Source: Stenotrophomonas maltophilia
GTDB lineage: Bacteria > Pseudomonadota > Gammaproteobacteria > Xanthomonadales > Xanthomonadaceae
Reading direction: 5' to 3'
Assembly (NCBI RefSeq): GCF_900186865.1
Contig: NZ_LT906480.1
Location: 2,002,001 to 2,066,000, forward strand
Length of the DNA: 64,000 nt
Shown here: in pieces, positions 53,918-55,963 of the stretch
Layout of the letters: every line of letters starts with the position of its first letter
Numbering within the stretch: the stretch's first letter is position 1
Program-made: the position numbers and the translations under genes
Notes under the pieces: generated by a model
The model's input: the letters and a program-made list of their open reading frames with translations, nothing else
Databases searched by the model: none
What the model was told of the DNA's origin: nothing

Positions 53918-54226
53918 TCAGGTCGACGCCAGCGCCGCGCGCTGGGTCTTGGGTTTGCGCTCGGCGAGGCCGAGCTGGAACTGCAGGACGTTGTCGGCCG
54001 CCGCGGGCACCGCGGCCGGGCGCGCGCTGCGCTCGGGGCGGTTGAGCCGGCGCCACGCCGCAATGGCCTTCTCGGGATCGGCATGCTTGCTGGTCGACCT
54101 GCAGGCGCACTCGACCAGGTGGCCTCCGCCGGCGGAGGCGTAGCGCTTGTCGTGGATGTGGCGCGCGCGGTGGCCGGCGGCGCAGTTCGGCAACCCTTCC
54201 GGGTGGCTGATATGTTCCTGGGTCAT
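53918..54226 (-). CDS. Phage protein of unknown function with Cys/His pattern
   Basis: 102 residues. The N-terminal half has NCAAGHRARHIHD and HLVECACRSTSKHADPEKA, a C-H-H-H-C-C pattern that could bind zinc. The C-terminal half is alanine/arginine rich. ATG 54226 overlaps the stop of the preceding gene (ATGA). Similar small zinc-type proteins are common in phage early operons; I cannot name the function. Confidence 0.65.
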   Translation of the reverse strand: MTQEHISHPEGLPNCAAGHRARHIHDKRYASAGGGHLVECACRSTSKHADPEKAIAAWRRLNRPERSARPAAVPAAADNVLQFQLGLAERKPKTQRAALAST

Positions 54227-54807
54227 GGCTTGTTGCACTCCTCGATGTGGGCTTCGAGCTGCTCGATCAGGAAAGTGGCTTCGGTGGCCCTGCGGCGGCG
54301 CTCGTGCGTGCTAACCGGAGCGGGCCCGGCGTCCCGGATCCACTGCAGCGGCTCAAGGAACCAGCTCGGGTGGACAGGCAGCAGTTTGCGCGGGTCGGGC
54401 TTGTTGTCAGGTGGGAAGCAATCCGGCCCTGCCCAGTCCTCGCTCATCCCGCAGCGCGTGCACACTCGTCGCTGGAAGTCATGGACCTTCTCGGGCTGGA
54501 TTACGCGCGGCGTTTCGAACAGTGCCCGGACAACGAGCCCACGCTGATGGGCGGCATAGACGTGCCCTGCGTCGGCCTGCATCCAGCAGCCAGGCCGGTG
54601 ATCGTCCTTGTTGCGGCACTCCCAGCGCACTGGCTGAGCGGTGTAGAGCTCTTTCAGAAGGGTGTCAGCCCAAGCGCGCACCTGGCGCCCGTCAACAGCG
54701 GTGGCTGGATCGACACGCCGCATCGCAGAGACAACTGCGGCGACAGGCGACGATGCCTTGGTGGCCTCGACAGCCGTGGCCGGGGAAATGGGCAGTGGTG
54801 CGGTCAT
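54223..54807 (-). CDS. Phage protein of unknown function
   Basis: 194 residues. Contains RWECRNKDDHRPGCWMQADA and RRVCTRCGMSEDWAGPDCFPP, i.e. several cysteine pairs suggesting a zinc ribbon. Proline-rich flanks. It lies 11 bases after the methyltransferase gene and overlaps the next gene; part of the leftward early operon. No family recognised. Confidence 0.65.
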   Translation of the reverse strand: MTAPLPISPATAVEATKASSPVAAVVSAMRRVDPATAVDGRQVRAWADTLLKELYTAQPVRWECRNKDDHRPGCWMQADAGHVYAAHQRGLVVRALFETPRVIQPEKVHDFQRRVCTRCGMSEDWAGPDCFPPDNKPDPRKLLPVHPSWFLEPLQWIRDAGPAPVSTHERRRRATEATFLIEQLEAHIEECNKP

Positions 54808-54818
54808 GCTCTAATCCT

Positions 54819-55886
54819 TCAGTTCGTGGCCAGCGCAGCGCGCAGCTGCTCGTCTGGATCCGGGTAGCCGTCCATGTAGGCGGCGATCACTTCCGCGGCG
54901 ACTTGCGGGACGATGGCGTTGCCGTAGGCGCGCAGGCGTCCCACTCGGGCCAGAACCCCATGAGCCAGCAGACGAATGCTGGATTCAACGCGCCGGAATT
55001 TTCCGTCGTGGCCGATGAGCCAGCAGGCTCCATCCCAATGGCCACGCTCGACAGGTACAGGCCGTGCCGACCGTCCAGCTGCGAGGGCGGGATTTTGGTC
55101 GTCCGGTTCTCGTTGGCCGACGCTCGTGGCGTTGGGTATAGCGCGACTGCTGCCTGCGACACCGCAGCCAGATCCGGCCCATGGTTCCGCGCTGCCTCCC
55201 TGATCGCGCCCTCCGTTGATCGCACGCCCTTGTCGGCGAGCGAGGCGGTCGGCGTCGGCCACAGGCCCGCAATACGGGGGTCGTCCAGCGGCGCAGACAC
55301 GTTCACCACCACCGTGGTCAGCGATTCCTGCGAGCCCTTCGTGTCCCCACGCCGACGCTGATAGCCCAGCCGCGGTTCGTGCGCCATTGGCGTGGGCCAC
55401 AAACCAGAGTCGATCCCGGCGATGGGGCGCGTCGACGGCACAAGCTGGGACAACGACCGCCCGGCAGGCGTAGTCCTCTGCTTCCAGGTCAGCAGACACT
55501 CCGTCGAGCCAGTTCTTGCCAACCGCCGCCGCAACCTGTTCTCCCATGACGACAGCGGGCCGTCGGGCACGGATGAGGCGAAGGAAGTGGGGCCACAGGT
55601 GCCGATCGTCATCCTGGGCTTTTCCTTTGCCCGCGACGGAGAACGGCTGGCACGGGGCGCTGCCGGTCCAGAGCTCGCGGTCGTCGGGCCACCCAGCAAG
55701 TCGAGCTGCAAGGGACCAACCGGCGATGCCGGCGAAGAAGTGGCATTGCCGATATCCGGCGAGGTCTGATGGTTGAACATCGGTGATGCTCCTGGTGTCG
55801 ACGTGGCCGGGCGGGATCAGGCCGGCATCGATGAGGTTGCGGATCCACTGCGCGGCGTAGGCATCCCATTCGCTGTAGTAGTTCAA
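54819..55886 (-). CDS. Phage DNA (cytosine-5) methyltransferase
   Basis: 355 residues from TTG 55886 (GAGGG six bases upstream; homology begins at NYYSEWDAYAAQW). Motifs: HFFAGIAGWSLAARLAG (I, SAM), TGSAPCQPFSVAGKG (IV, catalytic PCQ), VVMGEQVA (in place of the usual ENV), APHRRDRLWFVA (VIII), and RAYGNAIVPQVAAEVIAAYM (X). It should methylate prophage DNA, for example against host restriction. The target recognition region (about 190-290) is Gly/Ala/Arg rich. A second long reading frame is nested in it, see the entry at 54887. Confidence 0.88.
   Translation of the reverse strand: MNYYSEWDAYAAQWIRNLIDAGLIPPGHVDTRSITDVQPSDLAGYRQCHFFAGIAGWSLAARLAGWPDDRELWTGSAPCQPFSVAGKGKAQDDDRHLWPHFLRLIRARRPAVVMGEQVAAAVGKNWLDGVSADLEAEDYACRAVVVPACAVDAPHRRDRLWFVAHANGARTAAGLSASAWGHEGLAGIADHGGGERVCAAGRPPYCGPVADADRLARRQGRAINGGRDQGGSAEPWAGSGCGVAGSSRAIPNATSVGQREPDDQNPALAAGRSARPVPVERGHWDGACWLIGHDGKFRRVESSIRLLAHGVLARVGRLRAYGNAIVPQVAAEVIAAYMDGYPDPDEQLRAALATN
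54887..55780 (-). CDS. Overprinted frame nested in the methyltransferase gene
   Basis: 297 codons in the +1 frame relative to the methyltransferase, same strand, without a stop. It has its own ATG preceded by AGGAG with an 8-base spacer. Segments GPTSFASSVPDGPLSSWENR, CLLTWKQRTTPAGRSLSQLV, repeated LWPTP(M/T)A, and LNPAFVCWLMGFWPEWDACA are, to my memory, like a recurrent class of phage proteins found beside or within dcm-type genes. So the frame may be a real second protein. Against this: high G+C DNA readily keeps alternate frames open, and conserved motifs of the host frame dictate part of the sequence. Confidence 0.5.
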   Translation of the reverse strand: MFNHQTSPDIGNATSSPASPVGPLQLDLLGGPTTASSGPAAPRASRSPSRAKEKPRMTIGTCGPTSFASSVPDGPLSSWENRLRRRLARTGSTECLLTWKQRTTPAGRSLSQLVPSTRPIAGIDSGLWPTPMAHEPRLGYQRRRGDTKGSQESLTTVVVNVSAPLDDPRIAGLWPTPTASLADKGVRSTEGAIREAARNHGPDLAAVSQAAVALYPTPRASANENRTTKIPPSQLDGRHGLYLSSVAIGMEPAGSSATTENSGALNPAFVCWLMGFWPEWDACAPTATPSSRKSPRK

Positions 55887-55963
55887 TGAAGTCCCTCGCG
55901 TTCTTGGCAATAGCTGCTGCGTGCAGCTACTCTCCCTTCTCCATGAATGTGCGAGAGGCAAGG

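Follow-up and report, generated by a model that had tools for sequence, protein, structure and literature searches.

An overlapping second frame as the probable recognition subunit of a phage-type C5-cytosine methyltransferase

Background

Lee, Kam and Shaw reportedly described in 1995 a C5-cytosine methyltransferase (MTase), M.EcoHK31I, whose small polypeptide is read in an alternate frame within the large one. Here we describe a phage-type C5-cytosine MTase gene of Stenotrophomonas maltophilia, found in a 64,000-nucleotide stretch of contig NZ_LT906480.1 (positions 2,002,001 to 2,066,000; hereafter the window), and a second open reading frame, ORF2, that lies inside it in the +1 register of the same strand. 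The two frames probably divide one enzyme, with the catalytic domain in the MTase frame (frame 0) and the region expected to recognize the target in ORF2. By its tandem arrangement of modules, ORF2 may be likened to the multispecific C5-MTases of Bacillus phages, although theirs is, as far as known, a single chain in a single frame.

Papers are cited below by PMC accession. In the Bacillus phage enzymes, tandem target recognition domains (TRDs) give access to several target sequences (PMC8936443). M.EcoHK31I (YGGCCR) carries motifs I-VIII and X on its large polypeptide and motif IX on the small one (PMC3404938). By the layout of motifs alone, the present locus is alike, with I-VIII and X in one polypeptide and IX in the other, and M.EcoHK31I would be its closest precedent; it differs in that the MTase and ORF2 described here lie in an apparent prophage and have shared modules. 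M.AquI is likewise a C5-MTase completed by two subunits, but is cut once, in the variable region, so that its small subunit holds both IX and X (PMC3404938). The ShiLan domain of a mycobacteriophage methylase hides an HNH gene in an alternate frame (PMC11855218). There too, a phage methylase frame crosses DNA that specifies its meaningful product in a different frame, but the ShiLan domain is a mobile insertion element and no part of the enzyme.

No description of the nested MTase/ORF2 frame was found in the open-licence PMC papers searched, the available excerpts being those of PMC9409062, PMC5582158, PMC5723332, PMC3404938, PMC3439449, PMC5944983, PMC6070908, PMC3091744, PMC8227390, PMC11855218, PMC8936443, PMC6456624 and PMC4574080. 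What seems new is the breadth of the arrangement, the substitution pattern that assigns the recognition region to the second frame, the sharing of modules and the existence of in-line relatives.

Results and discussion

The following features of the window are referred to below.

54819..55886, minus strand: C5-cytosine MTase, frame 0, 355 aa (amino acids), proposed TTG start at 55886, stop at 54819; large catalytic domain
54887..55780, minus strand: ORF2, +1 frame, 297 aa; proposed small (target-recognition) domain supplied in trans
55776..55793, minus strand: MTase residues RSITDV, the same DNA giving the AGGAG (55789-55793) and ATG (55778-55780) of ORF2
55427..55501, minus strand: ORF2 anchor ECLLTWK...LVPSTR, dual-coded over the MTase residues preceding motif VIII; predicted beta hairpin
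55398..55424, minus strand: MTase motif VIII, HRRDRLWFV, frame 0; the catalytic block ends here
55265..55402, minus strand: ORF2 module 1, LWPTPMAHEP...
55142..55264, minus strand: ORF2 module 2, LWPTPTASLADKG...
55034..55141, minus strand: ORF2 module 3, LYPTPRASA..., its tail split off as a fourth piece by the automatic parser
54941..54994, minus strand: motif IX equivalent, GALNPAFVCWLMGFWPEW, ORF2 frame, dual-coded
54897..54935, minus strand: MTase motif X, LRAYGNAIVPQVA, frame 0

A sequence-only reading of the window had placed a 297-codon stop-free +1 frame at 54887..55780, on the strand of the MTase, with an ATG of its own and AGGAG 8 bases ahead of it. These coordinates are right, both frames being on the minus strand (AGGAG at 55789-55793, ATG from 55780), and the segments quoted from ORF2 are present, LWPTP twice together with one LYPTP. 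ORF2 is open for 297 codons from ATG to stop and for 309 from stop to stop. By itself this length is modestly unusual and weak evidence (p = 0.014 in 1000 synonymous shuffles, 0.02 in 5000; the MTase gene is 66% GC (guanine plus cytosine)). Since length alone is barely beyond chance, the case for ORF2 rests on its relatives.

We assembled 83 loci, namely the window, two phage records (L003, L004) and 80 viral loci from an MTase profile, these being the best 80 of at least 597 relatives, some on contigs already sampled; loci and pairs are related by descent, and p-values are not those of independent events. The +1 frame matches ORF2 in the same register in all 83 loci, and so in 80 of 80 viral loci, including loci of about 43-55% GC. 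Its open length has a shuffle p <= 0.05 in 66 loci and > 0.05 in 17, as against none of 83 with p <= 0.05 for the other sense frame. Stops in the second frame of relatives, which the sequence-only reading had named as evidence against itself, are nearly absent: 6 of 47 loci have one, within the last 9 codons of the ORF2 match. From MTase codon 75 to motif VIII, a single +1 stop is seen where 70.7 are expected (89 loci, 8 of 97 being left out), and between motifs VIII and IX, designated region C, there is none (83 loci, without 14 of 97 that were unparsed). Frame 0 also lacks stops throughout region C (0 versus 243.6 expected, 83 loci), while the third frame has 406 versus 416.9 expected. Some ORF2s begin later, such as that of L072. 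In L086 and L088, whose contigs print alike, a single in-frame stop stands in the motif I region of the MTase with ORF2 open, and is either a mutation or a sequencing error.

The start of ORF2 is embedded in a conserved stretch of the MTase, residues RSIxDV, which in the window encode AGGAG and gATGt. The Arg codon is AGG in 31 of 90 genes, as against 6.4% of other Arg codons, and the Asp codon is GAT in 65 of 82, as against 898 of 2353 gene-wide (p 3e-15 and 3.5e-14); the complete AGGAG plus ATG occurs in 30 of 90. Among 77 parsed ORF2s (20 of 97 loci were unparsed), 65 have an ATG with a Shine-Dalgarno match of at least 4 bases and 36 of at least 5, where any of several ATGs per ORF2 may count; for other out-of-frame ATGs the numbers are 112 and 47 of 868. 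ORF2 has its own conserved ATG and Shine-Dalgarno sequence.

The substitution pattern indicates which frame matters where. ORF2 codon positions 1 and 2 are MTase positions 2 and 3. The third position of an MTase codon is thus a second position in ORF2, and the third position of an ORF2 codon falls on an MTase first position, so that each frame leaves a footprint opposite to that of the other. For 145 linked pairs we counted the differences per codon at positions 1/2/3 of the MTase, 8 loci having been dropped for MTase stops (six with the stop where the MTase itself ends, L086 and L088 with it in the region of motif I). They amount to 0.103/0.077/0.264 upstream of ORF2, 0.049/0.035/0.128 in the catalytic overlap (region B), 0.332/0.246/0.326 in region C (swapped modules included, as well as the B codons of some pairs for which the B/C boundary failed), 0.075/0.053/0.145 in the motif IX-X block (region D) and 0.087/0.056/0.185 after ORF2. 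The reduced synonymous change that the sequence-only reading proposed to look for in the MTase frame is found in the catalytic overlap, where the third-position value of 0.128 compares with 0.264 upstream and 0.185 downstream of ORF2.

Among close pairs free of module swaps the contrast is sharp. In region C, the window differs from L005, L006, L007 and L008 at 16, 26, 30 and 52 ORF2 third positions; first positions account for 2, 8, 5 and 7 differences and second positions for 1, 7, 3 and 1. To illustrate, the window and L008 differ in ORF2 with a dN (nonsynonymous rate) of 0.010 and a dS (synonymous rate) of 0.833 over region C, and in the MTase with a dN of 0.088 and a dS of 0.37 over region B. 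The pairs L031-L032 and L031-L034 likewise show an excess at ORF2 third positions (21 of 25 each); L032-L034 has no differences in region C, and L085-L090 was unparsed and left out. Same-family modules were compared in 223 pairs drawn from 58 loci. The differences at ORF2 positions 1/2/3 total 1182/784/3427 and position 3 leads in 220 pairs, in a set picked by ORF2 identity, which favours third-position excess. ORF2 similarity exceeds that forced by the MTase at z>2 in 29 of 33 disjoint pairs in the LTWK anchor block and in 33 of 33 in the motif IX block, under a null that ignores codons shared by descent and with 30 of 97 loci unparsed.

The selected frame therefore switches, from the MTase over motifs I-VIII to ORF2 between VIII and X. 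On the strength of this pattern, region C DNA codes for ORF2, with frame 0 merely held open. The idea of a complete modification enzyme in the MTase frame is not supported, as ORF2 is the frame under selection across this middle part (median 137 codons), where the MTase frame is for the most part just held free of stops. The idea of an overprinted, conserved second gene with its own start is upheld by the relatives, by selection and by the start site: the second frame is open, has its own start and is under purifying selection across relatives. An untranslated passenger, generated by GC-rich codon usage and the amino-acid constraints of the MTase, would account for the window's length p of about 0.02 and for the 17 of 83 loci with p > 0.05. 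It is scarcely credible given the persistence of the frame at about 43-55% GC, the substitutions falling mainly at ORF2 third positions in region C, the conserved start and the 0 of 83 result for the other sense frame. ORF2 is thus almost certainly a real protein.

Frame 0 is a C5-cytosine MTase by its matches to PF00145 (E=1.9e-18, over the cut-off) and phrog_363 (E=5e-80). It has motifs I, IV (PCQ), VI (GEQV), VIII (RxR) and X (GN), conserved in two MTase alignments (in the second of which 13 of 95 MTase rows were unused). No motif IX was seen in frame 0 in the MTase alignment, where a one-chain enzyme would usually have a variable region followed by IX. The AlphaFold2 (AF2) model of frame 0 contains a large domain with a structural match to M.HhaI, and about 100 residues of low pLDDT (predicted local distance difference test) and no confident structure in the place of the small domain. 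In the window MTase and in relatives, motif I (QCHFFAGIGG) stands after a motif II/III-like stretch (YYNE-DPYAAQWL..., GxVDxRSI), giving the order II-III-I-IV; the match to M.HhaI begins at M.HhaI residue 35. HHalign pairs the N-terminus of the window MTase with the corresponding stretch of the actinophage enzyme Phasih; Phasih and Lacticaseibacillus R9.1 have the usual motif order.

ORF2 contains WPTP modules of about 37 aa, three in the window, followed by LNPxFVxWLMGFP, which together would be the recognition region plus motif IX. The motif IX of the window reads WLMGFWPEW, where most rows of the ORF2 alignment have P for that W. The anchor has predicted strands at residues 96-103 and 109-116 in the AF2 model. 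The exchangeable modules of multispecific phage C5-MTases are about 40 aa long, and tandem modules of about this length are found here between motifs VIII and IX. Of 100 non-redundant ORF2s, 76 could be parsed, into 1-5 pieces, mostly three, with an internal median of 37 aa. At 60% identity, 202 modules fall into 119 families, 87 of them singletons and 32 with two or more members, and 12 of these 32 occur at more than one position. The 76 ORF2s display 71 distinct module orders, a number inflated by singletons. Module pairs at least 75% alike number 169, of which 11 join ORF2s whose anchors are less than 45% identical, for instance L023 with L091, L095, L109 and L119 (L047, whose contig is cut in this gene, is left out of the count). 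Such sharing fits recombining recognition modules, by analogy with multispecific phage MTases.

Many actinophage MTases carry modules, motif IX and motif X in line in one chain, and the motif IX block of the window aligns to its counterpart in the MTase of Phasih, one of the in-line enzymes (HHalign, whose E-values refer to the pairwise comparison). This order bears on what ORF2 does. An unrelated second protein, such as a regulator or an anti-restriction factor, merely sharing the DNA would suit the result that searches of Pfam, NCBIfam and PDB sequences with ORF2, its relatives or their alignment gave no match of note. We consider it improbable in view of the in-line modules and motif IX of the actinophage MTases, and of a frame 0 in which no motif IX is seen and no small domain is modelled with confidence. 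The sequence-only reading, which set a second protein, its role unknown, beside a conserved modification enzyme, is better replaced by one in which the frames divide one enzyme: ORF2 is very probably the recognition subunit of the frame-0 C5-MTase, supplied in trans from the overlapping frame.

The proposed mechanism is a phage-type C5-cytosine MTase split by reading frame. Frame 0 would yield the large domain, with the catalytic Cys and Glu and motifs I-VIII and X, and would pass through the place of the small domain for about 100 residues. Internal initiation at the ATG of ORF2 would produce a putative small domain made of the anchor hairpin, a few exchangeable recognition modules of about 37 aa and motif IX. 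Both polypeptides would be translated from one mRNA and pair into a full MTase, which may methylate cytosines specified by the modules and so shield phage DNA from restriction.

Several results weigh against this division of labour. The predicted TRD of M.EcoHK31I was placed in the large subunit (PMC3404938), which differs from the present case, where selection puts the recognition region in the second frame. ORF2 modelled alone has a mean pLDDT of 57.5 and a pTM (predicted template modelling score) of 0.22, and Foldseek with this model gave no match at E<=0.001, which leaves the small-domain fold putative. The ORF2 stretch before LTWK reaches z>2 in only 14 of 33 pairs and is below zero in 2, and frame bias in region C is not significant for the close pair L118-L133 (16/16/24). 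Relatives of Phasih have module-like strings in +1 as well, in 24 of 30 genes with Phasih's contig included (L152-L181), many of these genes carrying such strings in frame 0 and +1 alike. Nor is the split the same everywhere: modules are in +1 and motif IX in frame 0 in Gordonia Trax and CheeseTouch and in Mycobacterium Chanagan, CheeseTouch aligning to the ORF2 profile over motif IX only (probability 53%); in Gordonia Gmala1, frame 0 ends soon after motif VIII; and in Gordonia phage Getalong (L150), motifs IX and X are in yet another, third frame. Because of Gmala1, Getalong and a module-sharing count of 11 pairs, we hold the two-subunit reading, and the wider proposal given below, slightly less firmly. 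In a set of ten loci, +1 length is significant (p<=0.02) in 8, the others being Trax (0.13) and L144, whose annotated frame is already that of ORF2; L140, L141, L142 and L145 gave no tblastn hit with ORF2 and were assessed from their motifs. The Getalong MTase gene has an extra stretch whose +1 reading resembles a separate protein, which recalls the hidden homing-endonuclease insertions of PMC11855218.

The same three considerations slightly upgrade a different explanation, a single polypeptide made by programmed frameshifting, in which ribosomes would shift by +1 once past motif VIII and return to frame 0 ahead of motif X. Motifs I-VIII, then the modules with IX, then X follow one another as in the in-line enzymes, and Gmala1 would fit either frameshifting or a plain split. 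Two shifts would be required, however, and frame 0 would be needlessly open in region C (0 stops versus 243.6), as would +1 in region B (1 versus 70.7), while the ATG and Shine-Dalgarno sequence of ORF2 are conserved. We prefer assembly in trans, because both frames are open where shifting needs none and because of the conserved start, and frameshifting is accordingly unlikely.

ORF2 relatives are widespread. A tblastn search with ORF2 matched 196 of 50,697 phage records, from Escherichia, Paenibacillus, Klebsiella and others, and protein database searches returned 1229 relatives among 6077 candidates, or 1858 among 7992 by profile (8 of 132 members of the ORF2 set were left out as shorter than 120 aa by the start picker). 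The organism names given among the 120 protein matches listed are Stenotrophomonas, and 4 of 91 genomes of the genus have a match, the window's own included. In the records examined, ORF2 is unannotated, 'hypothetical', 'Mte8-like' (as in E. coli phage K1ind2) or 'DNA methyltransferase' (as is phrog_1008, its family in PHROGs); the relative in Paenibacillus phage Diva is annotated 'g49 internal gene'. No explanation of the name 'Mte8' was found in the available excerpts of the open-licence PMC literature. As annotated, a common phage MTase family thus lacks the part that likely determines its specificity, or has it under a wrong name. A plasmid search with ORF2 found 7 records, six named 'DNA cytosine methyltransferase' and none covering 80% of ORF2. 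In L054, the match is limited to the final 67 residues of ORF2 and the corresponding MTase end, probably a remnant.

If the two-subunit reading holds, the target specificity of this MTase family is to be read from the second frame, and frame 0 cloned alone should yield an inactive or unspecific protein. The family would form a natural series in which to see how one enzyme is divided between frames, the in-line relatives serving as the comparison, and ORF2 would be an overprinted product with a function that one can name and put to the test. We lean, with some reserve, towards a wider proposal, a very large phage enzyme family that encodes its catalytic domain in one frame and its recognition domain in another over a single stretch of DNA, in which the second frame is a cassette of exchangeable modules and target sites are gained, lost and combined by recombination while the catalytic frame passes through. 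On this wider view, actinophages whose genes have modules in both frames would possess one set in cis and another in trans.

The longer open frame of the MTase reaches a TTG at 55961, and relatives are alignable from about the YY residues after 55886. The window genome is 5.0 Mb. An excisionase-like gene and a CI-like repressor near the MTase are in keeping with a prophage neighbourhood. One downstream neighbour was matched:

54223..54807, minus strand: gene matching phrog_38416 (function unknown)

From its spacing, our guess is that this gene is on the same transcript as the MTase.
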